Shown here piece by piece: positions 6,001 through 49,652 of a DNA stretch of 64,000 nucleotides. The DNA is from Chondrosia reniformis (taxonomy: Eukaryota > Porifera > Demospongiae > Chondrillida > Chondrillidae). The notes under the pieces were generated by a model. The model did not search any database. It had not been told where the DNA came from and saw only the letters and a list, made by a program, of their open reading frames with translations. Position numbers and translations under genes: made by a program. The stretch spans positions 5,022,001 to 5,086,000 of the forward strand of contig OX359191.1 in the NCBI GenBank assembly GCA_947172415.1, written 5' to 3'. How positions within the stretch are numbered: the stretch's first letter is position 1; each line of letters begins with the position of its first letter.

Positions 6001-9000
6001 ATTTAATGGACAAAAATTATGGGATACATTATGGGATAAATTGGTTAAAAATTGTAGGATATACTGGCAAAACTATGGAATATACACTCCATAGGATATA
6101 TAAAGCATAAATTAAATGATATAATAGGCTTAATTATGGGATATATTGTGCACAAATTATGGGATCTACTATGGGTTATATTTGTGAAAAGTTATGGGCT
6201 ATATTTGACCAAAACTAGAGGGCATATTGGGAAAACTATGGGATATATTATGGGATATAATTGGCAATATTTTAAAAAAATTGGATATAGTAGGTAACAA
6301 CTGAGGAATATAATAGACAAAATTATGGGATATATGTGGCAAAAATTATGGGATATATTTGCAAAACCTATGGGATATATTCGGAATAACTTTGGGATAT
6401 ATTTGGCAAAACCTATGGGATATATTGGTCTTAGACTATAGGTTATATTATGGGATCCATTTGGCACAAATTAAGGGTTATATGTGTAATAATATGGGAT
6501 ACTTTTGGCAAAAACTATGGGTATATTTGGCTAAGACTATAGGTTATTAAATGGGATATATTCGGCAAAACTATGGGATATATTCGGCAAAACTATGGGA
6601 AATATTGGGCAAAAATTATGGGAAATATTATGGGATATATTAGTTAAAAATGGTACGATATATTTGGAAAACTATGGGATATACTGGTCCATTGATATAT
6701 TAAGGAAAAACTAAAGAATATTTTAGGCAAAATTATGGGATATATAGGGCTTAACATTATGGGATATACTATTTGATATATTGGGCAAAAATTAAGGGGT
6801 ATATTGGGTAAAACTATGGGATATCTTATGGGATATAAATGTCAATATTTGATAATTGGATATATATGGAAAAACTTAGTGCAATATTAGGCAAAGTTAT
6901 GGGATATATTTGGCAAAAATTAGGGAATATATTTGAAAAAAATATGGGTTATATTCAGAAAAACTACGGGATATAATGAGCAAAAACTATGGGAAATATT
7001 CGGAAAAACTATGGGATATATAGGGCAAAAACTATGGGTTACATTGGGCTAAGACTAGAGGTTATAATATGGAATATATTTGGCAAAATTTATGGGATAT
7101 TTTTCGAAAAATAAGGGATATATTTAGGCAAAACTATTGGATATTTTGTGCTAGGACTATAGGTTATTTTATGGGATATATTCATCCAAAACTATTCGTT
7201 TTATTGGACAAAAATTATGGGATATATTATGGGATATATTGGTTAAAAATTGTATGGTACATTTAGAAAACTATGGAATATACTGGTCCATTGGATTTAT
7301 TTAGCAAAAACTAAGTGATACATTAGGCAAAATTATGGGATATAAAGGGTTTAAAATTATGGGATATACTATGGGATATATTTGTCAAAGGATATGGGAT
7401 ATATTTGACAAAAACTTAAGGGTATATTGGGTAAAACTATGGGATATATTATGGGATATAATTGTCAATATTTGTAAATGATTTGATATAATAAGGAAAA
7501 ACTGAGGAATATAATTGGAAAAAATTATGGGATATATTTGGTAAAATTATGGGATATATTTGCAAAACCTATGGGATATATTCGGAATACTATGAGATAT
7601 ATTTGGCAAAACCTACGGCATCTATTGGGCTTAGTTTATAGGTTATCTTATGGGATATATTTGGAAAAATTGAGGGATATATTCGCCAAAACTATGGGAT
7701 ATATTCGGAAAAAATATGGGTTATATTATTGGATATAATTGGCAATTTATTTAAATAATTGGGTGTATTAATCAAAAACTCCGGGATATAATAGGCGAAA
7801 TTATGGGATATATTTAGCAAAAGTTATGGGATATATAAGCAAAGAGTATGGGATATGTTCCGAAAAATATGGGAAATACTTGGCAATAACTATGCGATAC
7901 ATTGGATAAGACTATAGGTTATTTTATGGGATGTATTTGGTTAAAACTATTGGATTTATTTGGCAAAAATTATTGTATATATTATGGGGTTAATTGGTTA
8001 AAATTGTTGGATTCCTTGGGCAAAACTATGGGATATACTGGTCCATTGGTTTTATTTAGCAAAAACTAAGGGATGCATTAAGCAAAATTGGGGGATATAT
8101 GGAGCAAACATTATGGGATATACTAAGGGACATATTTGTCAAAACCTATGGGATATATTTGACCGAAACTTAGGGATATATTGGGTAAAACTGTGGGATA
8201 TATTATGTTATATAAATGGTAATATCTTTAAATAATTGGATATATTAAGCAAAAACTGAGGAACATATTATGCAAAATTATAGGATATATTTGGTAAAAC
8301 TTATGGGATATATTTGCAAAACCTATGTGATATATTCGGAATAATTATGGGAAATATTTGGCAAAACCTATTGGATATATTGGGCTAAGACTATAGGTTA
8401 TTTTATTGGATATATTTGGAAAAACTTAAGGGATATATTTTGAAAAATAAGGTATATATTTGGCAAAACTATGGGATATATTGGGTAAGACTATAGGTTA
8501 TTTTATTGGATATATCCGTCAAAAACTATTAGATTTATTGGGCAAAAATTATGGGATAAATTGGTTAACAATTTTTGGATATATTTGGCAAAACTATGGG
8601 ATTTACACTCCATAGGATTAATTAAGCAAAAACTAAGCGATATAATAGGCAAAATTATGGGATATAATGTGCCAAAATTATGGGATATACTATGGGATAT
8701 ATTTGTGAACAGCTATGGGATATATTTGGCCTAAACTAAGGGGTATATTGGGTAAAACTGTGGGATATATTATTGGATATAAATGGCAATATCTTAAAAT
8801 AAATGGATATATTAAGCAAAAACTGAGGGACATATTTGGCAAAATTATGGGATATATTTGGCAAAAATTATGGGATATATTTGCAAAAACTATGGGATAT
8901 ATTTGGATAAACTATGGGATATAATGGGCAAAAACTATGGGATATTTTGCCCTAAGATTATAGGTTATATCATTGGATATATTTGGCAAAAGTTATTGGA

Positions 9001-9355
9001 TATCTTTAGACAATTATGGGATATATTTCGCAAAAACTATGGGATATATTGAGCTAAGACTATAGGTTATTTTAAGGGATATATTCGGCAAAAACTATTG
9101 GATTTTTGGGCAAAAATATGGGTTATATTATGGTGTAAATTGGTTAAAAATTGTTGGTTATCTTTGGCAAAACTGGGGGATATACTGGTCCATTGGATAT
9201 ATTAGTCAAAAACTAAGGGATAAATTAGGCCAAATTTTGGGATATGTAGGGCAAACATTATGAGATATTACATGGGATGTTTTTGTCAAAAGCTATGGGA
9301 TATATTGGATAAAATTATTGGGATATATTTTGGGGTATAATTGGCCATATATTTA
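1..9355 (+). repeat. Satellite array, 22-23 bp unit with higher-order structure
   Basis: Nearly all of this block is variants of one unit, roughly ATGGGATATATT followed by GGCAAAAACT. Variants recur in a fixed order: a GACTATAGGTTATTTT variant, then a GGTTAAAAATTGTTGG variant, then a TACTGGTCCATTGG variant, then a spacer reading TTGGCAATATTTTTAAATAA. The TGGTCCATTGG landmark (with variants) occurs near 471, 1241, 2449, 3247, 4289, 5031, 5441, 6085, 6682, 7281, 8034, 8605 and 9185. The usual higher-order spacing is therefore about 600-800 bp. The G-containing strand is always the plus strand. The short reading frames in it are by-products of the repeat, not genes. Confidence 0.95.
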
Positions 9356-10609
9356 CGCTAGTGGAACATGTCCATACTTCCGTAAATTTTCAAAAAAAGT
9401 CGTTAACTAACACTCTTTTTAATCTACTCTATTTTACTTTAGAAACATCGTATCACTAAACCAATTATATAGATTTGAAGGGCTAATCTTTCTTAATAAT
9501 TTGGATACAAGAGCGTCACGATTGCAGGCTTAAAGGAGAAGGTAAGCGGCCGTAAGTGAGAGGTGCCAAATCGCCAAAAATGCTTTATTAGACAGTGGAA
9601 AATACGAATATAGAATAAATGGTGACACCAATCTATGAAGGATAATGATATCTAACGATGGTATGCATACTCCTTTCAAATTCCCTTTACTTTTTGAATT
9701 ATAATCGAAAACGTATTTTCGTACCTTTATCGGGCGCCTCTAGTACTTCATATCTCAGTTAAACAAGGGAATATTCCAGGAGTATACATACAACTTTTAG
9801 GCTGTTACTTACTGAAGAGATTGATGTCAAAAAATGGTTAGATATACAATTCCATTTTCCATTTGTCTCTTCTCCTTCGAGTAATGGTATTGTCACGTGA
9901 TTATCAGCCGAAATTAGTGGTATAGCTTAGCCATCATACAATGACGTTATATGACGTTGCATATGCACCCAAATATTTGGTAACATGTTATACAAACATT
10001 AGACTTCTGAAGTTGATATATCAAGTTAGGCTTCTCGGTAGCGATACAGTTTCCTTGATCGAAGTTTTTTGTTGTTTAAGAGGTAAGTGGAAACAGTAAG
10101 CATATTGCATGTCTACCAATATCTACGTAATTATCAATGGCGAAAATGTATGAGCAATTAACGAAGTATAATCAAAAGAAAATAGAACGTTTCGGTCATG
10201 TAAGCCTTAATTCCTTAGCTATTATAATACGTTAATAATAGCTGCGGAATTAAGGCTTACCTGACCGAAACGTTCTATTCTTTTTTTGATTATTAACGTA
10301 GTAGAATCAAAAGAAAAGCGTTTTATTCTTCTTTTGATTATTAACGAAAAGAAAAATAGATCGTTTCGGTCACGTAGGCCTTTATTGGCCTTCCTCCGTC
10401 GTTGGCCTTCCTCCGCAATTGCTCATAAGTTTTCACAATTGATAATTTAACATCGATAACGACTAGTGATGACTCGTGACGTTTCAGTGGTGCTCTCCTT
10501 CATGCGCAGGTCACATGCTAGAGACACTTCCGCCTGGAATGTGACACCTCTGAATGCGCTAATAGACGATTTACAAAAATCGGAAATTCGTATACATGTT
10601 ACACATGCG
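9356..10609. mobile_element. Non-autonomous TIR element inserted in the satellite
   Basis: The satellite stops inside its spacer variant and resumes at the matching point 1.25 kb later. The insert begins CGCTAGTGGAACATGT and ends with the reverse complement of CGCATGTGTAACATGT (13 of 16 match). A TA dinucleotide flanks each side (9354-9355 and 10610-10611), consistent with a TA target duplication. No transposase reading frame is present, so it looks like a non-autonomous DNA transposon. Its superfamily cannot be fixed from the ends alone; a TA duplication fits Tc1/mariner-like elements among others. Confidence 0.6.
10133..10442. repeat. Foldback element nested in the TIR element
   Basis: The outer arms are imperfect inverted copies: TATGAGCAATT near 10150 and AATTGCTCATAAG near 10416. 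An inner, near-perfect hairpin at 10181-10279 pairs AATAGAACGTTTCGGTCA with TGACCGAAACGTTCTATT. A third copy of the GTTTCGGTCA arm lies near 10363. This is a MITE or foldback-type repeat with no coding capacity. Confidence 0.7.
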
Positions 10610-10611
10610 TA

Positions 10612-11288
10612 GAAAATTGGATGTATTAAAGGACAACTGAGGGATATATTAGGTGAAATTATTGGATATATTTGGTAAAAATTATGGGATATATATTTTC
10701 GAAACCTAAGTGATATATTCGGAATAACTATGGAATATATCTGGCAAAACCTATGGGATATATATTGGGTTTAGACTATAGGTTATATTATGGGATATAT
10801 TTGGCAAAAGTAGGGGATATATTTTAAAAAATAAGGGAAACATTTGGCAAAACTATGGGATATATTTGGCCAAATGTTTTTGGTTATATTTGCAAAAACT
10901 ATACTATATATTCGGAAAAACTTTGACATATATAGGTTAAAAACAATGGGATATATTGGGCTAAGACTATAGGTTTTTTATGGGATATATTCGTTAAAGC
11001 TGTTGGATTTATTGGGCAAAAATTATGGGATATATTGGGCAAAAATTATGGGTTATATTATGGGATATATTGGTCAAAAATTGTTGGATTGATTTGGCAA
11101 AACTATGAGATATACTGGTCCATTGGATATATTAGGCAAAAACTAAGGGATATATTAGGTCAAATTTTGGGATATGTATAGCAAAAATTATGGGATATAC
11201 CATGGGATGTATTTGTCAAAACTATGGGATATATTTGGTAAAACTATGGAATATATTTTGGGATATTATTGGCAATATATTAAAATAA
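10612..11288 (+). repeat. Satellite array, second block
   Basis: The 22-23 bp unit and the same landmark variants resume here (TACTGGTCCATTGG near 11112). Removing the 1.25 kb insert gives a normal higher-order spacing of about 665 bp between the 9185 and 11112 landmarks. This indicates one array interrupted by an insertion. The array ends at about 11288, where unique sequence begins. Confidence 0.92.
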
Positions 11289-15313: not shown

Positions 15314-16915
15314 ATGGATGCAAAGAGCTGGACGGTTTAAGGGTTGAAAACGTTTTTAAAGAAGCACGATTTGCCTATTAGTGGGACAAAACAGGAGCTT
15401 TTAGTCAGTGTTACCGATTTTCTAGAGACAAAAGAACTCGAAGAAGAATTCGGTGTGCCGTTTACCGACCTTTAAGTGCCTGTAGCACCTCGATTAGAAG
15501 ATTTACCAGAGAACGGGTGGCAAAGTGATTTGTTTCCTGATATATCCAAGAACGATGTGATGTTGTACCTTCAAAAATTCGGTAGTTATACGAAAAATTA
15601 CCGCACTGGTGTTCAATTGTGTCAATCTAATCACTTATTTGCTATACAATCAACCAGGAAGGATAATGGCGAGGTGGTTGTTTGCGCTAAATGCCATCCT
15701 ACTATGAGGAAAGTTCCTCCTTTTTATCAACTTACTGTTTTTATAAACATACAAGGCACTAGTACTCAGTCACCAGCCCCCATACTGGTAGGAGCTATTT
15801 GTTCATGTCCTGCAGGAGAGTCACAAAGTTGTGTGCATGTTGCTGCCTTACTATTTACTCTGGTTGAGATAAGTCCAACTGCCTGCACCAGCTTACAATG
15901 TGTTTGGTCTCGCACAGCCTGCACAAGTGGAAGACAAACTAAAGCCAGCAGTTTGGATTTTGGAGTGGCATCATTTGAGGGATATTACCAATATAATGGT
16001 CCTAAACTGAATGTATCTGCTTTATTGGACTCCCTAAGTGAGGCAAACATTCATGATGCTGCAGCACTAGTATATGGCCATAATGAAGAAGAAAGAATCA
16101 CTAGGGCAACAACTACGATGCAACATCAAGAGAATACTTCTGGTATACCTAGCTTCATTAATCCCTTGAGAAGACTACAAAATTTGCAAAAACAGCCATC
16201 TGATTTTACAACTGTAGAATTAATCAATGTTTTGACACCCTGTTCAAAAGAAGAAGTAGCATTGATTGAATCAATGACCACAGGACAAAGGCTTAATCCA
16301 CTTGGGTTGGATGCAAGGCAGTGGAGGCTTACAGATAGCAACTTTGGTTGTATTTGTAACAGGAAAAGGGCAGAAGGCTATTTCCCACATTCTTTAATAA
16401 AGAAGATTATGGGAGATTATGGAATGGCAAGTGGACCAGCTATACAATGGGGTATTACTAATGAGACAGTAGCATTAGAGGCCTATGAATTACTCACTAA
16501 GAGGACCATTCAGAACTGTGGTGTCTTCATCTCTTTAGAACATCCCTACCTTGCAGCAAGTCCTGATGCAGTTGGCATTGAAGAGTCTACCAGGTTCATT
16601 GTAGAGGTCAAATGTCCTTACAAACATAAGGATGATATGATCAGAGAGGCCTGCAGTGATAAGGACGTTTGCTTGCAGATTATGGAGAGTGGTATTCAAC
16701 TTAAAAGAAGTCATGATTACTATTTTCAGGTTATGGGCCAATTAGCAGTCACAGGTGCCAACTACTGCCATATTCTTGTTTGGACTTTGAAAGATAGGCA
16801 TTTAGAGGAGATATCCTTTGATGCAGAATTGTGGACAACCATGCTAAAGAAATTGAAGGATTTCTATCATTTTCACTTAGGTCCTGAAGTAATCAGTAGA
16901 CTTGCCAATCAGTAA
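15314..16915 (+). pseudogene. SAP-SWIM-YqaJ nuclease of the transposon, two early stops
   Basis: Reading from ATG at 15314, the frame is 533 codons with in-frame TAA at 15338-15340 and 15473-15475; the open 479 codons after the second stop lack an ATG at their start. In order: a SAP-like DNA-binding helix pair in the first 40 codons (LKTFLKKHDLPISGTKQELL); a SWIM-type zinc finger, CSCPAGESQSCVHVAALLF, about residues 162-180; and a YqaJ/lambda-exonuclease-type domain in the C-terminal third, with GPAIQWGITNETVALEAY, SPDAVG and IVEVKCPYKH supplying the acidic and ExK residues. Such nucleases process DNA ends and are the companion protein of ISL2EU-type transposons. AATAAA follows at 16954. The gene converges on the transposase, 47 bp away. 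The stops, unless assembly errors, inactivate the full-length form. Confidence 0.75.
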
Positions 16916-16962: not shown

Positions 16963-18428
16963 TTATATAATGAGTTGTTTTTGTAAGTTGACCAAAGCAC
17001 ATGAAATAATAACCATGTCATCTAAAAGCTGTTTATTAGATGGATTTGGCTGAGTTTGCTGAAATATCTTGAAATCTTTCATCAGTTTAATGGCATTCTC
17101 TACTCTAATCCTCACACTTGCTAAAGCTTTGGACTGCATGGCTTCTTGTGATGTTAACTTCTTTTGGCCTCGTAGAAAAGAGGGTATAGTTAAAAAACTC
17201 TTTTCTTCGATAGTAAACCACAATCTGCTAAAATTCTTTGGCCAGGTTTAAGATAATCCAAAAATCCTGAATTATTTACGATAAAACGGTCACTACTGTT
17301 ACTTGAATAACCAGGTGATACATATGTAAAGGCACCTGTAAAAGTATCAATCCTCACAATGTACTTAACTGTGTTGTGACTCTTATAGTCACTGTAAGAT
17401 GATTTTTGAGTGCCCAGTACACTAGGTCGTTGTATAAAGATCTCTGTTCCATCAATTATACCCACTGAATTGGGTAGATGATCATAAGGTGGGGTTTGTG
17501 GACCAATATTAGTTTTAGGCCAGCTGATAAGCTCTCTCAGATTTGAAGCAAGCATTGGTATCCAATGACTTAAAATGCGTGATACAGTGGACTGCTCAAC
17601 ACAAAAACGATAGGCAAGGTCCTCTTGGGTTAAGCTCAGCCTCATTCTGACTAATACCATCAGTAGTTTTTGACTATCTGTAAGCTGAGGTCTTCCATAC
17701 ATCATATGTTCTTGAATTACAGGGCTAGTCGAAGGTGTATTCTGGTTGATGCTCTTAATTGCAGGGGCCAACCATTGTAGTAAGATTGGAAAAATAGTAC
17801 TGCGCACACCTGTGTATCCCACAATTTGTTCTGCTTTAAGATATTTAATGTCAAACCTTTGAGGAATACTCTGGAGTACTTCCAGTTCTTTTTTAAGTAG
17901 TAGGATGTTGCCTCTTAACTGTAGTAATGCCTCCAGTTTTTCATCAGGATCGGTTTGTGTATTGCAAGAAACTGTTGTTACAACTTCAACAGCAGCCTCA
18001 GGTTCTTCAGAAAATACCTCATCAGAGTCAGAGAGGGAATGATCTTCTTCAGGGTTGGTCATTTGCAATCTACGTTTTAACATTCGTCGTTTTTTGCAGG
18101 CTGTTCTGGAGGGTGAATCTTTTTGAATAACGTCGGTATTAACTCTGCATTCTTTCTGGTAGGGCCCTCAAAATTTTCATAGGGTAAATTGCAAATACAC
18201 ACTGACGCCGAAGGTATCGAATTCGATCCATCTTCTTCTTTCCTATTTAGTCTTTTTTAACTGCTTTCTGAACGCAATCAGACATTTTCGATATGCAATA
18301 AAGCGTAAGAAGGGCCGACGATTTTGGACAATCTTTATAAAGTGTTTTAGGGCAACCACAAATCCTGACGCCCTCATCACTTTCTGGACATCTTCCCTTA
18401 CGATTATGACAACCCCAGGCACAACACT
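16963..18428 (-). pseudogene. THAP-DDE (Harbinger-like) transposase, frameshifted
   Basis: The longest open part (18083 to 17190) holds a coiled-coil-like segment, a helix-turn-helix (LTDSQKLLMVLVRMRLSLTQ, then QSTVSRILSHW) and the start of a DDE_Tnp_4-type domain: first Asp in GIIDGTE, second in ILADCG (usually ADRG). A frameshift near 17215 moves the rest to another frame (FTIEEKSFLTIPSF to the stop at 16963), which carries the third acid in RVENAI. Upstream (18428-18084), pieces of a THAP zinc finger are readable in two frames (CCAWGCHNRKGRCPE, then VCICNLPYENFEGPT and IPTLF). They are separated by a shift, and another shift in a run of six A residues separates them from the long frame. 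The protein would bind and cut the transposon ends; this copy is broken in at least two or three places. Confidence 0.75.
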
Positions 18429-21615: not shown

Positions 21616-22111
21616 TGTATAGTCACTTGGCCCTCTTCATGGCTGTTCCGCTTCCTATGTTAACCGGTAACTTAGTTTTTCATGTGACTATTTTGCAACA
21701 GTTAATCGGTTAAAAGAAAGAGAAGTGTGCTTTCTTTATACCCTTCGTTTGCCAATCTTACTACAGTTCGTGATTGATTTACAGGTTAGTATGAATGTAC
21801 TGTTTATAATAAGTATATAAATGCAACAAACGTCCTCAGAAAATGTCTTATTAAGGTGAAATTAGTAGTTTGTAGTAAGCAATTTTCTTTCAATTTCCAG
21901 CTTCTCCCAGTTTTGAGACGAATTTTGTTGGTAGCAGCATACTCTTCAAAGTATATATACTTCATTTGTAATTACTGGTTTTGTGGCCTTTTGGTTTGTT
22001 AAAGATATGGTCAAAGTACACTAGTTGATGATGAAATCTTAATTTATGATGGTCTTTACTAGGTTGATTAATATATAGATTAATATGGCATTAAATGAAT
22101 GCAACATTTGT
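21616..22111. other. No recognised feature
   Basis: AT-rich sequence between foldback family E and the 3' end of the RAG1-like pseudogene. I looked for the other end of an element (a CAC-initial terminal inverted repeat) and did not find a convincing one. Confidence 0.5.
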
Positions 22112-22422
22112 TTAATTAGCTGTACTCCTGTGTTGAATCAGTGGCCTTTCCTTAGCAGCATGTGAACAAGTTTGTAGAGCATGCTCCTTTAACATTGCTT
22201 TAAGCTTCTGTGCTGGATTTTTAATGTTGGAATATGATCTCTCTAGAGAGTTAAAAATGTTATGTATAGATTCTGCACCATGCTCTGCATGTAAACCAAG
22301 GCTACAGTGCCATGTTGTCATCTGGGGAACAGAATGGTCGTCAAGTATGTGCATTTTTGGGGTAATACGTTCATGCGGGAAAATCAGCCTAAAGCAATCC
22401 AAAAACAGATCTATATGTTTTC
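22112..22422 (-). pseudogene. RAG1-like last exon with catalytic Glu
   Basis: Starts after ATATCTGTAG. TPKMHILDDH, then WHCSLGLHAEHGAESIHNIF and NSLERSY, parallels the HKTLAHVPE...GSIGAWASEGNES...RRFRK segment of RAG1. The Glu in AEHGAES is the third acid. The frame is open to a TAA at 22112. Confidence 0.7.
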
Positions 22423-23838
22423 CTACAGATATAGACATATAGTGCAAATTAATGTACATGTTATGTGTTTCCTATCAAATATTAGCTTTATGGTACTGGT
22501 GTTTACCAAAGTATAGTTTATTGATTGATTAGTTAATGAGAGAGGATAGTGAGAAGTATGTGCATATAAATGAGGCCTATGATTGCTATCTAGTTGCATG
22601 CATGGATAATATGAGAATCAGCAGCAACTTACTGAATATTTGAATGCCTTCATCAGACCTTGAAGTGGACTTAGAATAGGTATTGTGGCATTCAGAAAAA
22701 AGGAAAAACAGCTGTTTAAATTTCTGTGCATTACATAGAGCTTCTTCTTTTATTTCCGCAGCAATATGCTGTTCAGCCACATTAGAAAAGATGCTGCACA
22801 ATCGGTTAATGTTTTCACGCTACATAACAATGATTAGTTATTATGTTTTAATATGATCTATGTAATCAAATACTTACTCACCTGACAACATTTGTGCACA
22901 TGATTTCCCACAAAAGTACCACTAAAATAAGCCTGCCTTTCAATACCAATTAAAAAGAGGATTTTATTTAATGCTTCGATACATGGTCCTGTATTGCGGC
23001 TCAACTTACTACCTTGTAATGATTTTAACTTTTCCTTCTAAATTAAGAATATATAATATATATTTACGCATATATGTATACTGATAGATGATTTGATCAT
23101 CATCAAATGATATTTTTTTATGTATCAAGTAGTATACATTTGACCAGCTAACCAAAAGATTAGCTTCTTTTTTGAAGTCATTGCTCTCTTTCAGTAAAAC
23201 AACTGCTTGGTCACTGGCTTCTTCGTCAACAACCATCACAATCCACAGGGCTATTTCTTCAGCTGTCCTAGCATTGTCCTCTAGTTTACTTATCTCTTCT
23301 TCATATTGCCTGATGGTTTGTAGAGTAGTGACATATTCTGTAAATTCATTTGAAGAATTCCCTGGCATGTATCCAGCCTCTGCAGTTTTAATATCCAGTT
23401 GGTGACAGGCATTTTCCAGCATCTTAAATAGCTTGTTAAAAATACCCAAACTTACATGTAAAGCTGGAATTGCCACCTAATATACGTGTAATAATATAAG
23501 ACGATGTCATAATGATTGGTTAGTGTATGTGTCAAATATTTAGTGTATAAGCCATTTTCTTACTTGATGCATAGGAATGTTTAGTATGGCTTCTTCTATA
23601 ACATTATTGTGTTGCTTTGCTTGAGTATGTTTGGATCCTGCTGCAGCAAATTGCTGAAAGTCACTTGCTAAGGTTGACAAAGTCCCGAGACAAGCACATT
23701 CTCTTTCTGATCAAGGCTACTGCATCTCCTTACTCTCAATGTTAAACCACAGTCAGCAGTGCCTTCCTGATAGATTAGTGCATGGCATGTAGTAATTCAT
23801 TATTATAATTATATAGAGATCTATAATCATCTCCTTAC

Positions 23839-23936
23839 CATTTGCACCCGATATTCCATACATTCGTGATAGATATTCATAGTCCACAAAATGAAACAGT
23901 CTCATTTGTTTTCCACTATGTTTAATACACATATTT
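23839..23936 (-). pseudogene. RAG1-like exon with second catalytic Asp
   Basis: Contains QMRLFHFVDYEYLSRMYGIS followed by GANG. The Asp before YEYL corresponds to the RAG1 Asp in GYDEKL, and the downstream SGANG...C..W pattern mirrors the SGSVYICTLC of RAG1. The next exon begins GRHC, then has an in-frame TGA. Confidence 0.65.
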
Positions 23937-24199
23937 CTGGTGCATATACTCATATGCATAACCTTATATGTGTGATCACTCACTGCCACATAGTTCCTTG
24001 AAGAAATTCTATGTTTTCTCTGTATTGTGATAGGGCAAATCTTAAGTTTGGTCTTGAATCGGTGGCCTGGAAAATGCAGAATACAAAAGAGTTTTTGGTA
24101 AATTGTGATGTTCTGTGTTGACAATTTGTTTAAGTGGTATGCCATATATACCTTAAACAATGTATATTACCATATATAATTGCAATAATCATTGCTTAC

Positions 24200-24299
24200 C
24201 TGAAAACAACTCTTAAATGTCCCACCACCTTTATCTCCTCCTATTTTTACCCAGATTTCTTCTGATGGAATACCACTGTGCCAGGTCAATGCATTAGTG
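24200..24299 (-). pseudogene. RAG1-like exon with first catalytic Asp
   Basis: Reads TNALTWHSGIPSEEIWVKIG followed by GDKGGGTFKSCFQ. The Asp in GGDKGGG sits where RAG1 has the Asp of its CDGMGD motif. The phase joins correctly to exon 24577-24371 (AG|C) and to the following exon. Confidence 0.65.
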
Positions 24300-25213
24300 C
24301 TGTGTATTTCAATTAGATTTGTCATACTTAGGTATGCAAGTTGTATTTTTGTGTGGATTAAAGTATTTACCTGTCTAATTGGGCAATTTGTGACAAAAGG
24401 ATGGCTTTCAAGTTTGCAAAATGAGCCATGGGAGCCTCACGTGGTTCCAACCCATGTGTTGGAAGTGAATGTGAAAATGGCAGACTTTCTGCAAAAATAA
24501 TCTCTGGAACCCAAGTTTTAGCTCTTTCTCTCATTGCCTTTTCACTTGCCATGTGGTATCCTCATTTTGATATCCATCTGCAATTAAAGAATGCAGTTAC
24601 CATGCAGCTTCAATTATCACATTAAGGTCATGATCACATAAAATGGGCAGATAACCACGGGAAAGTGTGCATAGAACATACTACGAAGGTCATTTAATAC
24701 ATGTAGATTTTACAATGTATATTGACTATTCAAACCGCAAAAATTAGTACCCATTAAAATAGGTACCTTAGTATTTACCTAGCAATTGACAGGATAAATG
24801 TTCAATGCAATTATATATAGTTAAGAATCGTTGGTGTAGTATTACCTTCGTATGTGTCGCATTTTATGCCAAGGAATGGCTAGATCAAATTTGAAGGCAA
24901 CACCTTCTTGAGCGCTGATATCCACGGGGTCGTGCAAGCCAGCCTGCTCCAGTATAGCAACTCTCTCTGATTTGCCACATCTCCTTAGCTCTTCTCCCAT
25001 CTGGAACTGCTGTGAATTTGAACTGTGACCACTTACCTCTTGCCTGAAGCTAGTTAGCAGAGTACTTCTTGTTCTTACAGTACGTTGGCTTGCCAACTGG
25101 CTTGGAACATGAGGTCTTGCAAACCGTTGGAAACAAAGTGGCTAAATACATCACAAATTTTAATGTAAGTATATATAGGTTGTCTATAAAGAGAGAGTTT
25201 AAATGTATCTTAC

Positions 25214-26146
25214 CTGACCCCCAGTTGGTAAAGTTAATGTAGTTGTTGTTGCAAAATTGCTAGAGGACTTCATCATCCTTTTGACAAGATGTGTAGCTAC
25301 TTGGCGCTCCACTGTATTAGGTGTCTTAGTCAATGGGGCATTTAAAACTTGGCGTAAACTAGGTGTGGAACAAGTTGATACTTCATTGGAATGACTAGAT
25401 ATACCTTCCATATCTTCAGATGTGCTTGAAAATAAGCTGGCTGATGCTGGAGTACGTGATGAGCACAAAGTAGTAAAAGTGTTCAATTGAAGATCATTTT
25501 CATCGGTAAATGGTAGTTCAGAATCAGTTTCATTGATTGTAAAATTTGCTATTTCAGCATCTTCATGTGGTGGAATGACTCCAGCAAGATTGGAAAGAGA
25601 TTCTGTTGAAGAGGGTGAAACTGGTGGATCGGTTGACTCAAGAGATGGAGGTTTTATTTGACTTGTTTTTTGAATATTGTGTCCTTCAAGGTGAGTACGT
25701 AAACTACCCAGAGTTGCATCTACTTTGCATCCTTGCACAGGGCAGATTATTGGCAACTCTTTATAAATCGATAAAAAATTGATGCTGGCTTTGTGATGCC
25801 ACTTTCTACTATAATATAGCTACAAATGGGACACTTTGGCTCAGATGATGAGTAGCAGTAGTTAATGGCTTTAACTAGGCACTCTGCACATGTAATGTGA
25901 TTGCATCGTAATTGCAGTGGGGATATCAGTATTTCTAGGCATACTGCGCAAGTAAAGTGGCCTGCTATTTCAGATGTTGATGCTTTTGGGGTTAAATATT
26001 GCACTTGAGTTGGTTTGTATTGTGGGACACTGGCAGCTGTTTTTCTTGTATATGTAATTAAAGTCATCCTTGTTCTTAATTCAACAGATGTATGCTCAGC
26101 ATTAGCTTTTGGTGGTCTCCCGCCTCTTAATTGCATGTTGACAGAA
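25214..26146 (-). pseudogene. RAG1-like exon 3: RING finger, zinc finger, linker
   Basis: Opens after TATTGTAG. RING Cys/His spacing is seen in FTCAVCLEILIS, LRCNHITCAECL and PKCPICSY. About 25 codons later, after a one-base shift near 25758, comes IICPVQGCKVDATLGSLRTH followed by LEGH, as RAG1 has a zinc finger straight after its RING. A Ser/Thr-rich linker follows, ending at a GTAAGA donor at 25213-25208. Confidence 0.75.
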
Positions 26147-26450
26147 CTACAATAGGAGGTATACACAGTGGAACCTCACTCTAAGACTATACCATAGGGA
26201 CTGACAAAAAGTTAGTCTCGTAACCATCCCCAACTAGTCTCGTGCCCATCCCCAACTTACTTAAATTCTACAAGAATGGCTGACGCCTCAGAAGGTTGGG
26301 TCTGGTGGCAGGCAGAACCAAAAGTGGTCTGAATTCTGAGATTTATGTACGTACATATGTACCTATTTATTGTTGTGCATGGATGACCCTTTTAAGTCTA
26401 TACATGTATTATAAGATTAAAAGTCAGAGTTGGAATTTTTTATACCAAAC

Positions 26451-26829
26451 CTGCATGTAAGGCAGTCTCTGTGTTTTTCCCATGAGGATATATGCTGCTT
26501 GACATTTTGGGTGATATTTTTGTTGGACATATAAGCCTCTTCGTATCTGAAAGTAATGAAATTAAGTATGCTTTGTAAATTGCTCACTTAGTCATGGCTC
26601 TGTAACATGTGTGACAAAATACTCTTGGATGAATGTTTTCATTATCAAGTGAAACAGCCTGCCTGAATGCCATCTCCAATCTCTCATTATATTCAGCAAC
26701 TGTATGAAGACCTCTACTGTTCTTTTTACTTCTACTCAACAGGGTTCCAGAAACACGACAGAGTTGCGCCAAATTGGTAGCATGAATATCCATGGCTGGA
26801 GCTGCTAAACTCTTTACTATGCAGTCCAA
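26451..26829 (-). pseudogene. RAG1-like exons 1-2: N-terminal zinc-binding segment
   Basis: Exon 1 starts at ATG 26829 and ends at a GTGAGC donor (26587-26582); exon 2 is 26546-26451. The spacing NIHPRVFCHTCYRAM ... WEKHRDCLTC follows the RAG1 pattern IHPxxFCHxCWxxM ... WxPHxxxCxxC. An upstream LCRVSG resembles LCRICG but lacks the second Cys. The join completes a Lys codon (AA|A). Confidence 0.7.
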
Positions 26830-27176
26830 CAGCTATTTGGGCTGTTATATATCTGTGGGTCATGTGACCAGTGAGTTGCTATAGTCCAATTATATACATT
26901 TGTATCTAATATGTATGGTATGTCTCTACTCTTTATGGTAGCTTGTATATCAGTATATTAACATATTTCTGTGCATATATTATGTACATATATTTATATT
27001 TTTATGAAGTGGCAATTAGATGACTTGTTTAATATGGCAGGAAGTTCTACAGGATATACTTTGATTGTTTTAAATTTATGAGTGCTATATATCTTAGCTA
27101 GTTACTAAAGTAAAAGCACACCCACAGTCCGAAGCAAGTGATTGTAAAAGGATGTTTTCCAGGATCTGGCACTACA
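26830..27176. other. No recognised feature
   Basis: AT-rich sequence between the RAG1-like start and a TIR element. No promoter motif or terminal repeat of the RAG/Transib type was convincing. Confidence 0.4.
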
Positions 27177-27921
27177 TACCATAAATCTTCTATAAATTCG
27201 TGAACTTTTGAGACTTTTCAATTCTTACTTTTCGAAGTTTAGGAGGAAATATGTGCCTCTTCGTTCGTGTCTTGCGAAAATTAGAGACTTTTTGTGAAAT
27301 TAGAGGCATTCTGACGCCATTTTAGGAAGGTACAAAATGGCTGCCTCTGGCTCGTTCTTTGTGACGATATCTTGCGTTATTCGTGGGTATCATGTCTACA
27401 AAGAGGTTTGGAGCCCCAATATTGGAGAGAATTTCGTGTGCTTCGACGAGGAAGAGAACGTTCATGACAGGAAAGCGGTAGAAAGAGTCACCAGGAGATT
27501 CTTTGCTTGTTCGCTGCTGTGCTGGCCTCTTACATGTGTTACTCGCTGGCTTGAACCTCTGCATAAACACTGGCCACGATGACGATGACCCTGACGGTCC
27601 TGGCGAGACGTTGGCGAACTCCAACAGAGATCTCTGCCTAGTCTTCACCTCCTTCTCAGTCGACGCGCTCTGGAGATGGCGGTGGCTCCTCGTAACCAGT
27701 TATCTCAACGTCCAACGACATCTCCCAGTGCAACACTGCTTCTACGTGCGATTACCGTTGCTAGGTACAAGTTCCAAGGTTAACAGCTGGTATTACAATA
27801 CCCATTTTACACGCGCGTTCCCGAAATTAGCGAAAAGTTCGAATTTTTAGAGCGTGTCAGTGCAAGATCGCGAAATGTTTACGAAAATTAGAGTTTTGAA
27901 TTTATAGAAGATTTACAGTAC
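27177..27921. mobile_element. TIR element carrying a HIRAN-like fragment
   Basis: Ends: CCATAAATCTTCTATAAATT on the left and the inverse of AATTTATAGAAGATTTACAG on the right, each next to TA. Subterminal CGAAAATTAGAG-type motifs are present near both ends. At about 745 bp without a transposase it is non-autonomous. It is GC-richer than its neighbours, fitting captured gene sequence inside. Confidence 0.55.
27337..27480 (+). pseudogene. HIRAN-like domain fragment
   Basis: From ATG 27337 the frame reads MAASGSFFVTISCVIRGYHV, then YKEVWSPNIGENFVCF and EENVHDRKAV. This matches the start of HIRAN-type domains (RGYHVYK..W.P..GE......E..N..D..AV), which bind 3' DNA ends in SNF2-family proteins and also occur in stand-alone invertebrate proteins. 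After about codon 48 the frame stops resembling the domain, so it is truncated or frameshifted. An open frame on the other strand (27648 to 27322) is treated as a shadow. Confidence 0.5.
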
Positions 27922-28441
27922 CTTTTAATAGTGTATGTATATTGTGGAGTCTCAGAATAGCAGAAACATTCGTATATGCTACATTGTCCCCTGTAGGCAC
28001 TTAGTTATGTATAAATGAAGTACTAAGGTACAAATTCTCCAGAGAATGTTAGTCTGTTTGTGAATATAGTCCCAATTGATACCCGGAAAGTGGCAATTAT
28101 ATTAATTATTAAATGGCTGCACTTAAAAAGTACAAGAAAATAACATACTTTCAAAGGAAGTATATGATATGCATCCATTTGCAATTAACTGCATAAAATT
28201 ACACATCAAGCAGACTTAATTATTGAATCATTAAAACAGCCTACGCAAATTGCTTAAATGTCTGCTGTACAGTCAAAATCCTATTTTGACTGTACAGTTT
28301 TTAACTTTTTCATTTCTGAAAGCTCTTGAATTGTATGCCATAAATGGTGAAAATGCACATGCATGCATGTTGTATGATTGATCCTACACAAGGGGCAAAA
28401 AAGAATCATGCACACATATAGGCATATACAAAATGACACAC
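27922..28441. other. No gene; one short perfect palindrome
   Basis: AT-rich. The only structure seen is at 28265-28297: CTGTACAGTCAAAAT, a 3-base spacer, and its exact inverse. Confidence 0.5.
28265..28297. repeat. Perfect 15-bp inverted repeat
   Basis: CTGTACAGTCAAAAT, spacer CCT, ATTTTGACTGTACAG. There is no U-run or other sign of a known function. Confidence 0.8.
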
Positions 28442-28893
28442 CTGTTTAGGGGGCTGAACAGAACTGCATGAGCAGTTCTATAGGAATTCCAAACAAATGT
28501 CCATGAATGGTACCCCACACCTCATTAGTGTGTATCCCTATAGAACAGACAGTACTGTGTATAATGTTACCTTGGGAACATTATCACACTCTCTTACATA
28601 TGTACCTCTCCTCATTGATCCCTATTAGGCATATTGGGTAGCACAAGTGTAAACGTACAACATGTAAACACATCTGGTAGCTGACTTACTTGAAAGTGAA
28701 CCAGTTTAGCAAAGTTAGGGTAGGAATTGAAGGTCTGGTGAATGTAGGAAAAGGCCAGACACTGAATCTTCTTTGGTTCCTCAGGTTGGTCAGCAGAGAA
28801 GGAATATGAAGTGTTCCTTGAAGAGAAACTACTCCACATCCGTTCAGTTACTCGTGATCTCATGCAAAGCTGACAGGAACATCTCCAAACCAC
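28442..28893 (-). pseudogene. INTS2-like exons (Integrator subunit 2), decayed
   Basis: Two exons on the minus strand. The first ends ...PKKIQCLAFSYIHQTF, then NSYPNFAKLVHFQ at a GTAAGT donor (28689-28684). The second (28537-28442) opens after TTCTATAG with GYTLMRCGVPFMDICLEFL, then a TAG, and after a one-base shift ELLMQFCSAP. This matches the conserved C-terminal block of INTS2 around IAKLVHFQGY and GIPSMHICLDF, and the splice falls cleanly between LVHFQ and GY. INTS2 is a core subunit of the Integrator RNA-processing complex. No further exons are seen either side and the second exon is broken, so this is a gene fragment or pseudogene. Confidence 0.6.
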
Positions 28894-28899
28894 TTCCCA

Positions 28900-29424
28900 T
28901 CGGAGGAGGGCATGTATTAGAATATATAGAAATAACTAATTTCTTTTCTACTAATATATAACCTGTACATAACTGGTTGGTATCTTTTATTCTGCTTTTT
29001 GTATTATATTATAATAATAATATGAATGTGCAATATTTAATATGATATATATCATGCATTACTAAGTAGTCTTGACTTGTATAACAGCATCAGCTAAATC
29101 TACGCTTTCTTCAGTACGTACAAAAACGTATTATACTTACGTTATGTGTTGTAATAAAACGGAAAGAAACGGTGAATGAACACGTATGCCTGTGTAGTTT
29201 GAAAGGAGATTTCTCGGCTAAATCGAAAGGCCACAAAAAGACAGAAGGTATACCCATAGCGATGAATACTAGCTATTATTTGATATCTAAATGGAATTCC
29301 AAAAAACTCGCAGAGTGCAACTACGCTCTCTATTCATATACAATTGTTCACGTGATAAAGTTAATGACGTCATCAATTGCTTGTGTAAAACTAAGATGCT
29401 ACACATAAACAGCCGTGTCTTAAA
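28900..29424. other. No recognised feature
   Basis: AT-rich; a short open frame at 29172-29408 has no recognisable motif and is not called. Confidence 0.4.
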
Positions 29425-29939: not shown

Positions 29940-30690
29940 GTTCTAAATCTGTCTAAAGTTGTTAGAGTGTAACTTGACAGAGGCCTTCTAAGTCTGTCTA
30001 AGGTTGTTCGAGTGTTGCTTAGTAGTGGGGTTCTAAGCATGTCTAAAGTTGTACGAGTGTGACTTGACAGAGGCGTTCTAAGTCTGTCTAAAGTTTTTCA
30101 CGTGTACCTTAGCAGAGGTGTTCTAAGTCTGTGTGAAGTTGTTAAAGTGTATAGCTTAGCAGAGGGGTTCTAAGCATGTCTAAAGTTGTACGATTGTAGC
30201 TTAGCAGAGGGGTTCTAAGTGTGTCTAAAATTGTATAAGTATAGCTTGACAGAGGTGTTTTAAGTCTGTCTAAAGTTGTTCGAGAGTAACTTGACAGAGG
30301 CATTTTAAGTCTGTCTAAAGTTGTTCGAGTATAGCTTAGCAGAGGGGTTCTAAGCGTGTCTAAAGTTGTACGAGTGTAGCTTAGCAGCGGGGTTCTACGT
30401 GTGTCTAAAGTTGTTCGAGTGTAACTTGACAGAGGCGTTCTAAGTCTGTCTAAAGTTGTTCAAGTATAGCTTAGCAGAGGGGTTCTACATGTGTCCAGAA
30501 TTGTACAAGTGTAGCTTAGCAGAGGAGTTCTAAGTGTGTCTAAAGGTTATGAGTGTAGCTATCTTTGCTGAGGAGTTTTAAGTCTATCTAAGTTGTATGA
30601 GTGTAGCTTGACAGAAGTGTTCTACGTGTGTCTAAGGTTGTACAAGTGTAGCTTAGCAGAGGTGTTCTACCTGTGTCTGATGTTGTCTGT
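29940..30690 (+). repeat. 45-bp minisatellite, about 16-17 units
   Basis: Unit roughly GTTCTAAGTCTGTCTAAAGT, TGTTCGAGTGTAACTTGACA, GAGGC. Two variants intermix: one with AACTTGACAGAGGC, the other with AGCTTAGCAGAGGG. Units drift at both ends of the array. Confidence 0.9.
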
Positions 30691-31249: not shown

Positions 31250-34160
31250 TATATAGGATGACCTTGAGGTTATTTCTGACTTTGAGGTGGTGTCAATGAC
31301 TGATTTTGTGGATAGATTCCATGCTGGAAGGGTAGTGGAGTGGATTCCAGACCACTCTGCATTTGTATGGGAGGTGGTGATAGACAACTCAGCAGCCAGC
31401 AATGTCTGTGATGATAATACAGAAAACTCCACTGGTGATAAGTTTAGGTATGTGGTCCCAGATGGTTACCTGGGTGGTAAGGAGAAGGAGGTTAGGAGCG
31501 TTGAGGAGGAGCTGCATAATTTTGATGGAGATCAGGCTCTTATGGATAGCATCTATGTTCAGCTGGTTGAAGTAATGTTTGGTGGGCTACAAAAGGTTAG
31601 GTGCAGATCAACGTATGCAGCTAGACGGAATCATAGGTGGTTTACTAAGGACCTGATGGCCTTGAGGAAAACTTTTCATCAAGCTGAGCATGTGTGGTTG
31701 AGAGCAAAGGATAGCGAGGATAGGAAGAACAAAAGGAAGAAGTATATTGTTAGTCGGAGAGCTTATGCGAATGCAGTCACAGGCTCCAAGAGGAGATTTC
31801 TTCAATCTCAACGACAAGCTTTAGAGAACCTATTAGGTAACCCTAAGAAGTGGTGGAGAGAAGTTAAGAAACTAGGCATTTCTAGTAAGAATCCACCTGG
31901 AGGTTTTGACAGAATCTCTGATGAGAACGGCGTGGCACGATCTGGTGAGGAAGGCAGGAAGGTCTGGAGTGAACACTTCAAGGAGGTGTTGCAAGGTGGT
32001 AAAGAGTGTCCCACCGGTTGCCATGCGTTGAATGGTGTGGCATAGCTAAAGGGCTAGGTGGGAGTAGTAAGGTTTTGGAGGATAAACTCACTCAAGAAGA
32101 AGTGATGTGGGCATTGGGTAAAGTAAAGAAAGGGAAGGCAGTTGGCAAAGATGGTATTTCTGTTGAGATGATGAGTGCTGAATGTTTGACAGATGTGTGG
32201 GTGAAATTGTTTAATGTCTGCTGGAAGTTTGGAGTGGTGCCCTCTTTGTGGAAACATTCAATTATCGTTCCAGTCCCAAAGAAGAAGGTGAGGGGAGTAT
32301 GTGACACCAAAAACTTTAGAGGTATATCCCTGACATCCTTGGTTTGCAAGATCATGTGCATGGTTCTGAACATGCGGCTGACTACCTTTTTAGAAACAGA
32401 AGGTACCTTGGTTGACGAACAGGGTGGTTTTCGCAGTGGTAGGAGTTGTAGGGATCAAATCCTGTCTTTGCTGTTGATTGGCCAGTCAATGCTGTCAAAG
32501 AAGTCAGATGGGATGCTAACAGCTTTTATTGACTTTAAGAAGGCGTATGATCAGGTGAACAGGAAGAAGCTGTGGGGTTGCTTAGAGGGTTATGGTGTAA
32601 ATGGGCGCTTCCTCACCTTCTTGAAGAGTTTGTACGGTGGTAGTGTGTCTCAAGCAAGAATTGATGGATGCCTAGGTGAAGAGTTTGAAGTGACAAAAGG
32701 TTTACGGCAGGGGTGTGTGTTATCTCCAGTTCTTTTTTCCTTGTATATCAACGGGTTGGTAACTGAATTAAAGGATAAGGATTGTGGGGTGATGTGTGAC
32801 GAAATTATGGTACCTGGTCTGCTGTTTGCTGATGACACAGCTCTATTGGCTGAGAGTGCAGATGATATGAGGAAGAGTCTCCAGTGCTTAGAAAGTTGGT
32901 GTGAGGAATGGTCTGTTGAGATAAATGTGGAAAAGAGTGCGGTAATGCACATGAGGAAAAGAGGGGTTAATAAGTGTGCTGATCATTTCAGTATTGGTGA
33001 GAAGGAGCTCCCATGGGTGTCTACTTACAAGTACTTGGGCTGTATGGTGGATGACAGTTTGGGCTGCTCAAGTATGGTGGAGCATCGGGTGGAAATGGGG
33101 TATCAGGCATTAGGTGCTTGGCTGCGGAGGTGTCGGGAGTCAGTTGGGGAGGTGAACGGCAGGTCGTTTATGCAGTTGATGCAGTCACTGGTGGAATCCG
33201 TGTTGTTGTATGGGGCAGAGATCTGGGGTTGCCATCAGAAGTTAGATGGGTTGAACCAGCTACAATTAAGGGCCTTGAGAATCTTCTTTGCAGTGGGGGT
33301 GCGCCACCCAAAGGTATCCCTGATGATGGAGGCTGATGCTTTCCCGGTGGTCTGGCTTGCAAGGGTGAGATGTGTTACATTCTGGTTGAAGGCTATGACG
33401 AATCCACTGTTTGAAGGAAGGATTTTGAGGGCAGCAGTGTTGGAGGCGGCTAAGAGTGGTGGAGGGTGGATGAAGAATCTGAAAAAATACCTGGAATGTT
33501 TTGGTTGGTGTGGAATCGGTGCCGAGGAGGTAAAAGGGCTGTCATGTAGAGAAATCACAATGATGTTACAGGCTTGCGCGAGAAGGAAGGTGGAAGATGA
33601 ATGGGATGGTGAACTGGTCACAAAACCCAAGTTGGCCTTGTTGAAACTTTTGAAGGAGAAAGGTGGTGAATCTCGATGTTTAGATGTGGCAGATAAGGAT
33701 AAGAGACGGATGATGATGATGGTCAGGGGTGGGACAGCCCCACTTAGGATTGAATGTGGAAGGTGGAGGGGTCTCGAGAGAGCGGAGAGAACATGTGAGG
33801 AGTGTGATTTGGGGAAGGTGGAAGATGTGCAACATTGGCTGCTGGAGTGCGAGAGATGGAAGGATGAGCAAGTGGACCTTTTTCAGTCATTGTCACGGGT
33901 AGCACTGGGGTTTGATTTGATGACTGATGATGATAAACTATTTGCCATTCTGGATCAAGGATGCAAGCATCACTCAATCCTTAAGATTATTTTGAAGATG
34001 TGGACTGCTAGATTTAGTTGACCTTTTTGATTGATGACTTAATGTTTTGTTGAACTGATTTATTGTCATGATGTATTGGTGTGTGCCTCATAGGACAGTT
34101 TGTCCTAGTGCTATGCATGTGGCACGTTAAATAATAAATAATAAATAAATAATAAAATAT
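31250..34160 (+). mobile_element. 5'-truncated non-LTR retrotransposon (LINE 1 of the window)
   Basis: Carries the end of the endonuclease domain, a reverse transcriptase and a C-terminal Cys/His motif, then a short 3' UTR ending in AATAAATA repeats (34130-34158), the usual LINE tail. The 5' UTR, any ORF1 and most of the endonuclease are missing, as expected from truncated target-primed insertion. It ends about 230 bp before the EIF2B1 start codon, in the same orientation. Confidence 0.85.
31257..34021 (+). pseudogene. LINE ORF2: endonuclease end, reverse transcriptase
   Basis: The first part (to 32045) starts inside the AP endonuclease, with IPDHSAFVWEV as its final SDH-type motif. One frameshift between about 32010 and 32040 moves to the 671-codon second part. 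RT blocks follow in order: KAVGKDGIS, FRGISLTS, EQGGFRSGRSCRDQI, AFIDFKKAYDQVNR (motif A), GLRQGCVLSPVLFSLYING (B), LLFADDTALLAES (C, catalytic FADD) and YKYLGCMVDD (E). A C-terminal CEEC...H....C cluster follows, then the stop at 34019-34021. The RT is otherwise intact. A related decayed C-terminus lies at 42890-43370. The clade was not determined. Confidence 0.85.
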
Positions 34161-49004: not shown

Positions 49005-49652
49005 TTATAGGCATCTTTTCCCGCCATTGTCGATTACCTCATCAGTGATGTCATCGGTTACATCATTTCCGGAGGAAGGAGAGGTGAAGGGAGTATTCAT
49101 AAAAAAGGGTTTCCAACCACTTCTTAGTACAATTCCTTGATCTAAGTTCATTCTTACCTGACATTGTTGGATCTTCAGGGCTTCCTTAATTCTTCTTCTG
49201 TACCAGTTCTCTTCCCTCTCCACCACTCTGGCTTGGCTCCACTCATTTGGATGGCCAGTTTTTAGGGAGTGAACAGCTAAGCCATTGTTCACATCCCCCA
49301 TCCTGACGGCACGTTTGTGCTCTGCCATCCTGACTTTTAGTGTTCTTCCAGTTTCTCCAGTGTACACTGCAGGGCAACTAGAACAGGGGATCTGGTAAAC
49401 GACACCTTTAATATCCATAGTAGGCTGGGGTTGTTTAGGCCTAGATAGGATACTCCTCAGTGATCTCTGCTTTGTGAAGATTTTTTCGATGTTCATCTTC
49501 CGGCATGTTCTGGAGATCATTTCACTGAGGCCTTTCACATATGGAATAAAAAGTTTACGTTTACCATCTACCCTACTTCCCTGGTTCCGTTGTCTCTTCT
49601 TCATGTGCCTAGCAGCAACCTTACTAAATAAAACGTTTGTGTTTACACTCAT
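49005..49652 (-). pseudogene. Penelope-like element 2, GIY-YIG endonuclease end
   Basis: 215 open codons. RT tail KLFIPYVKGLSEMISRTCRK, then VVYQIPCSSCPAVYTGETGR followed by TLKVRMAEHKRA: the GIY-YIG active-site strand-helix (here VY-YTG) with the catalytic Arg. It ends with a His/Asn block (LAVHSLKTGHPNEW) and MNLDQG. The domain nicks target DNA for insertion. Open, but attached to a decayed RT. Confidence 0.8.

Follow-up and report, generated by a model that had tools for sequence, protein, structure and literature searches.

The Chapaev elements are a group of DNA transposons (Kapitonov and Jurka 2007, as cited elsewhere) whose hallmarks, according to Zhang and colleagues (PMC4079192), are target site duplications of 3-4 base pairs (bp), termini of the form CAC..GTG, and C(2)C, LH and H(4)H motifs in the transposase. 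A subgroup carries a RING finger behind an N-terminal zinc domain, the Chapa domain, and in Kapitonov and Koonin (2015; PMC4411706) an ancient Chapa-RING-core fusion is already derived from these RING-bearing Chapaevs. The Transibs and the RAG1/2 system produce duplications of 5 bp. A canonical Transib such as HzTransib has neither a Chapa nor a RING domain, whereas the RAG1-like transposons (RAGL, ProtoRAG) carry a RAG2-like gene as well. The Aplysia element N-RAG-TP, known here by its description in PMC8355894, is likewise mobile, with a RAG1 N-terminal-like protein, and according to that description consists of nothing beyond the N-terminal-like part. Here we describe an element found in a stretch of 64,000 nucleotides from the sponge Chondrosia reniformis (GenBank assembly GCA_947172415.1, contig OX359191.1, positions 5,022,001 to 5,086,000), referred to below as the window. 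With a probability of about 94%, it is a dead cut-and-paste Chapaev transposon of the RING-bearing subgroup in what is most likely a demosponge host.

A single gene within this element encoded the transposase, in which a RAG1-type Chapa domain is followed by a RING with a zinc finger and then by an RNase H-fold core with three catalytic acids (Asp, Asp, Glu; DDE) of the RAG1/Transib fold. The order of Chapa domain and RING is that of the RING subgroup of Chapaevs. The gene lies on the minus strand (26793..22112) in 13 exons, whose boundaries were placed by hand and which are separated by 12 GT-AG introns in phase. Joined together they give 1059 residues with four in-frame stops and one frameshift near 25759, and they align, in order, with animal proteins. 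An earlier, sequence-only reading of the window had proposed thirteen in-phase exons with these motifs in a dead gene, and all of this is borne out; the interval that it assigned, 22112..26829, does hold the gene, but the mobile element is larger. Nine of the 10 core introns stand at or near equal positions in an intact, distantly related family of this genome, as judged by eye, the exception being intron 6, which is absent there.

Exon 1 (26588..26793) contains the start codon and most of the N-terminal zinc domain, with the motif IHPRVFCHTC, and exon 2 (26451..26546) supplies the W..H..C..C of the same domain. Residues 41-132, encoded in exons 1-3 (26053..26673, introns included), match PF12560, the RAG1 importin binding or Chapa family, with an E value of 1.1e-10. 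Exon 3 (25214..26146) encodes GGRPPK, the RING, the zinc finger and a linker, and bears the frameshift. The RING finger (CAVC..CPIC, 25816..25953) scores above the cut-off of PF00097 (E 3.6e-5), and the zinc finger directly after it (CPVQGC..H..H, 25679..25744) aligns with CPAQDC..H..H of RAG1. The first 264 residues match positions 148-380 of mouse RAG1 at E 2.5e-13, a match that precedes every non-RAG1 chain among the matches listed (the best 60 of 88), with BRCA1 next at 7.6e-8; the exons and motifs therefore represent more than chance. The N-terminal zinc motifs and RING dimerization domain of RAG1 and RAGL are thus both present, in the RAG1-type order that had been described. The AT-hook-like RGGRPPK does not conform to that order, since it follows the N-terminal zinc domain and precedes the RING, whereas the GGRPR of RAG1 (mouse 389-393) comes after the zinc finger.

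The core begins in exon 4 (24846..25141) and continues through exon 5 (24371..24577), which has an in-frame TGA close to its start. Exon 6 (24200..24299; IWVKIGGDKGGG) carries the first catalytic Asp codon at 24235-24233, equivalent to D600 of RAG1, and exon 8 (23839..23915; FHFVDYEYLSRMYGISG) the second at 23884-23882, equivalent to D708. Between them lies exon 7 (23984..24066), where around 20 residues that follow the first Asp in relatives are missing or decayed. Exon 9 (23564..23766) has two further stops and has lost the CxxC zinc pair, one Cys having become TGA (23755-23753) and the other a Phe codon (23746-23744). The LH motif (ALHVSLGIF) is found in exon 10 (23153..23476) and is followed by exon 11 (22882..23037; RQAYFSGTFVGNHVHK) and exon 12 (22633..22819). 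Exon 13 (22112..22422) encodes KMHILDDH, corresponding to H937 and H942 of RAG1, and AEHGAES, in which the catalytic Glu codon (22273-22271) corresponds to E962, and ends with the stop codon. The window copy thereby retains D, D, LH, H(4)H and E. With a frameshift, four stops and no CxxC zinc pair, it is predicted to be incapable of transposition.

It could be supposed that the RING part and the core belong to two neighbouring genes wrongly joined, as they sit on different exons and the gene model comes from sequence alone. We consider this extremely unlikely, because both parts are found within single predicted proteins, namely P0004, P0005, P0020 (RING match) and P0011 (RING-like stretch), and because the same order with an open junction recurs in two further families of this genome.

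The complete element, of the Chapaev type, spans 7780 bp on the minus strand (21638..29417) and runs from CACGGCTGTT to AACAGCCATG. Its 5' end is at 29417 (CACGGCTGTTTATG), where a homology of about 300 bp to the 5' end of a related family, family B, also starts (60%, E 2.7e-9), and its 3' end is at 21638 (..GGAACAGCCATG). A copy that is 97.0% identical over 6934 aligned bases, at G000:C2:6238745-6245738, starts and stops at the same bases. The ends are inverted and begin with CAC in the relatives: the 5' terminal inverted repeat, CACGGCTGTT, occupies 29408..29417, and the 3' repeat (21638..21647), read from outside as CATGGCTGTT, differs from it by one change. On either side lies a 4-bp target site duplication, at 21634..21637 and 29418..29421, which reads TCTT on the plus strand and AAGA on the strand of the element. 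These ends were obtained only through comparison with relatives. When terminal inverted repeats were sought in the 64-kb window alone nothing convincing was found, because 2.6 kb, with a nested insertion among them, separate the 5' end from the start codon, and the 3' end is altered. The nested insertion, of 742 bp (27181..27922), resembles a miniature inverted-repeat transposable element with inverted ends of 23 bp (27177-27199/27898-27920); it sits between the 5' end and the start codon and is not present in the 97%-identical copy.

The genome, comprising 117,379,552 bases in 15 contigs (the window being G000:C3:5022001-5086000), was searched with PF06918, PF12560 and terminal DNA, and the further copies were sorted into three families, A, B and C. 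Family A consists of the window element, the C2 copy and an interrupted copy on C6, which is broken up by about 7.2 kb and of which the 3' part was read. The C2 copy is flanked by duplications of AGCT, and deletions peculiar to it affect exon 2 and the RING exon. Since the window and C2 copies, 97% identical, occupy different sites and are bordered by different duplications, the element must have moved. Family B has three copies of 8.75, 8.78 and about 9.07 kb that are 94-98% identical to each other and can be aligned at the DNA level with the window gene (66-84%). Their ends are CACGGCTGTTTCC..GGAAACAGCCGTG, except that a single copy differs by one change at one of its ends. In the copy at C5:2244509-2253258, 12 coding stretches between set anchors are free of stops, exon 8 is found whole, and plausible in-frame GT-AG boundaries occur at 11 of the 12 junctions, the 5/6 junction having poor candidates only; a second copy has a stop in exon 5.

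Family C also has three copies, of about 6.5 kb and 99% identical, with ends CACGGCTGT..ACAGCCGTG. One of them contains an open gene of 975 residues in 10 exons, and the other two have frame-shifting indels. Pieces of an older family C element, a 5' end (G000:C5:4641296; 88% identical) and a 3' end (C5:4651281; 91% over 43 bases), lie 10 kb apart and are perhaps one copy with nested insertions. A decayed copy of the DUF1280 type (L008, G000:C5:4487800-4497799) does not match family C at the DNA level at E 1e-20, and two further loci, L038 and L039, have only short matches to the window element, at 68-83%. The intact relatives that the sequence-only reading had expected elsewhere in the genome are accordingly found, as two families related to the window element each hold one copy whose coding exons read open.

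Target site duplications of 4 bp flank six of the eight copies with both ends read: AAGA in the window, AGCT in the C2 copy, CGTA, ACTT and CCCC in family B, and CGTG in family C. The remaining two, L005 (G000:C2:4912169-4918687) and L006 (G000:C4:2672627-2679159), are family C copies with unchanged element ends, one of which has a 5-bp duplication, ACAAA, and the other none. The paralogs with terminal repeats that had been anticipated do exist, therefore, but with duplications that are mostly of 4 bp rather than the predicted 5. The 4-bp length falls within the range described for Chapaev, and the CAC..GTG termini are seen in the relatives (CACGGCTGT..ACAGCCGTG). The Chapaev3 pattern, a 3-bp TWA between A and T, is not seen, the 4-bp duplications lacking that consensus.

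A domesticated host gene, like RAG1, that had recently become a pseudogene might equally be long and have many introns, as is the case here. However, the presence of a 97%-identical copy elsewhere that shares the ends but has another target duplication, together with two further families, likewise built and present in several copies, means that the element moved as a transposon. A host gene is therefore refuted at the window locus, and we attach almost no probability to it.

The family to which the core belongs separates the element from RAG1 itself. PF06918 (DUF1280) matches the window piece that holds the first two acids at E 7.1e-7, above the curated cut-off, and matches relatives at E 1.8e-12 to 5.3e-18. 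The motifs GRHPCPYC, GLHISQG and KMHMLEDH of protein P0001 are those of a Chapaev DDE core with C(2)C, LH and H(4)H. A profile alignment places the three acids of the window core at the RAG1 triad, as the sequence-only reading had them. The LADESD of RAG1 was considered as the counterpart of the second Asp and ruled out, as mouse numbering pairs D708 with the Asp of GDYEY. In relatives, the RAG1 core fold is found with D600, D708, E962 and the C2H2 zinc site, of which the window copy lacks the CxxC pair, and the fold of the Transib core is found likewise. Identity to the RAG1 core is only 14-17% by structure or profile alignment. By its sequence, the core is thus classed as DUF1280/Chapaev and not as the RAG1/Transib-family gene that had been proposed.

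For these reasons it is very unlikely that the element is a true sponge RAG1-like transposon (RAGL or TransibSU) and the deepest known relative of vertebrate RAG1, in spite of its RAG1-type N terminus, its RING and zinc finger, its RAG1 fold and the single 5-bp duplication among the eight copies read. RAG1 and RAG1L share with it the N-terminal zinc domain, the RING and zinc finger, the core fold and the positions of D, D, CxxC, HH and E. Against this, published identities to the RAG1 core exceed 30% for TransibSU, and 5-bp duplications are the rule for RAGL and Transib. PF12940, the RAG1 core family, is not listed at E values up to 10 in four window pieces and four relatives, although the HMMER filters drop most weak matches. 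Nor is there a sign of the RAG2-like partner. In a family B copy, the sister element, no open reading frame of at least 80 amino acids occurs in the 2.5 kb upstream, where short exons would be missed, and the downstream side has one minus-strand frame of 83 amino acids; none of the at least 29 Kelch_3 matches listed in the genome lies inside an element, in keeping with the earlier remark that no RAG2-like Kelch gene was visible.

Several points nevertheless weigh against assigning the element to Chapaev with its RAG1-like fold. The 3' end of the window copy is CATG where relatives have CGTG, so that one of the two hallmark ends is altered, and two of the eight copies have no 4-bp duplication. 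The start of exon 7 is uncertain. The absence of PF12940 depends on filters of the kind just mentioned. The hhalign probability is 68%, against one RAG1 sequence, and a search of Protein Data Bank sequences with a core profile of four relatives gave no RAG1 match. The fold model was made on a Ptychodera relative and not on the window protein, and the Chapaev assignment was made by Pfam family and published hallmarks.

The relatives place the element among a scattered set of animal proteins. A database search with the window protein yields five, at 29-34% identity and including proteins of Ephydatia muelleri, of which two have PF12560 and PF06918 together. When the cores of four relatives were used for a profile search, in which 7992 candidates were scored, the set grew to 86 proteins, among them some from sponges (Ephydatia, Halichondria and, by its label, Sycon), the hemichordate Ptychodera flava, echinoderms and a nemertean. 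These uncharacterized proteins, from Ephydatia muelleri, Halichondria panicea, Ptychodera flava, echinoderms and Lineus, share the core, and some also have PF12560 and a RING, but their names do not say Chapaev. In P0020, from Ptychodera flava, PF12560, RING and PF06918 occur within one protein of 1089 residues. P0011 is probably from Sycon, to judge by its 'scpid' label. When P0001 was used to scan a bacterial and archaeal collection, no relative was confirmed. In a core tree of 39 rows, built by a quick method, the sponge sequences are spread over more than one group, and the position of the window element is not resolved.

With the RING-bearing Chapaevs already described, the window element shares the succession of Chapa domain, RING and DDE core, the DUF1280 family, CAC ends and the 4-bp duplication. 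It differs in having many introns (13 exons, and 10 in family C) and in its host, which is most likely the demosponge Chondrosia reniformis and in any case fits the non-vertebrate origin suspected at the outset; the word 'sponge' does not occur in the main text of PMC4411706. No statement on Chapaev in sponges was found among the open-licence PubMed Central papers listed (at most 12-20 in a listing), though Repbase Reports may include them. Two listed papers that contain both words were set aside as reports of sponge Chapaevs, since in the portions concerned 'Spongebob' is the name of a transposon and Amphimedon is named for long non-coding RNAs.

The mode of action can be pictured from Transib and RAG1. 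The transposase would bring the two element ends together, and the DDE acids would nick next to CAC, with hairpins forming on the flanking DNA. The ends would then be joined to the target across a 4-bp stagger. The RING probably acted as an E3 ubiquitin ligase on the transposase itself or on a partner, as in RAG1. The product of insertion, ends with a 4-bp duplication, can be read in the DNA, whereas the chemistry and the ligase role are attributed by homology. The element is built like RAG1 and would work like a RAG1/Transib transposase, yet it appears to be a Chapaev.

The N-terminal half of RAG1 compares with the Chapaevs differently from its core. In one MAFFT alignment, the Chapa part of mouse RAG1 is 22-30% identical to that of eight Chapaev proteins; between distant Chapaevs the figure is 19-31%. 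For the RING and zinc finger, RAG1 shares 24-31% with seven Chapaev proteins and falls in the lower part of their mutual range of 23-40%. Both mutual ranges leave out the close pairs P0011/P0017 (Chapa 50%, RING and zinc finger 51%) and P0004/P0005 (45% and 44%). In the core, Chapaevs share 29-46% (65% for P0011/P0017), and RAG1 stands at the 14-17% given above, a value from structure or profile alignments. RAG1 is thus not clearly set apart from the Chapaevs in its N-terminal half, whereas in its core it is. In a tree of 13 N-terminal rows, mouse RAG1 sides, weakly (77/93) and with the longest end branch, with the host and hemichordate Chapaevs. It is conceivable, if rather unlikely, that the Chapa domain, RING and zinc finger of RAG1 were taken by recombination from a RING-bearing Chapaev instead of descending together with the core. 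A similar pattern could also arise through saturation of so short and cysteine-rich a module, and the comparison used one RAG1 sequence and no outgroup.

Elsewhere in the window, positions 1-11260 form a decayed tandem array, with gaps, of 22-23/45-bp units around TATGGGATATATT, and the first 8 kb have a GC content of 0.28-0.29 and a GC skew near 0.5. An open frame of 479 amino acids on the plus strand (15476-16915) has a YqaJ exonuclease domain (E 1.7e-14), and near it lies a DDE_Tnp_4/HTH_Tnp_4 transposase fragment (17190-18167, minus strand). About 0.5 kb past the 5' end of the transposon, a 45-bp tandem array has about 16 copies (29940-30669). Reverse transcriptases of the long interspersed nuclear element type are found at 32003-34021 (plus strand), with its three best relatives 83%, 69% and 68% identical, and at 52354-52899 (minus strand). 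Two minus-strand frames, 49005-49721 and 55989-56735, give a GIY-YIG match and a reverse-transcriptase match, both weak and below the cut-offs; these are perhaps Penelope-type elements.

If the host is a sponge, the full RING-plus-core architecture would, in the sequence-only reading, predate the split of sponges from other animals or have moved laterally. A lateral route is documented for Chapaev3-type elements, in PMC4079192. The inference of an ancient fusion is not new, having been drawn by Kapitonov and Koonin (2015). Presence in sponges does not by itself date the architecture or prove its vertical age, because of that documented horizontal transfer and because the tree does not keep the sponge sequences in a single group. 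As RING-bearing Chapaevs were already known in 2015, the present case confirms the published scenario and does not overturn it. The transposon from which RAG1 is thought to derive would have joined a RING and a Transib-like core to an N terminus of the RAG1 type, and the RING-bearing Chapaevs share that layout. Three such families within one genome, most likely that of a sponge, with their ends, their duplications and two open-reading copies, provide material for testing the age of the fusion, and the same material could test whether the front half of RAG1 descended with its core or was borrowed.

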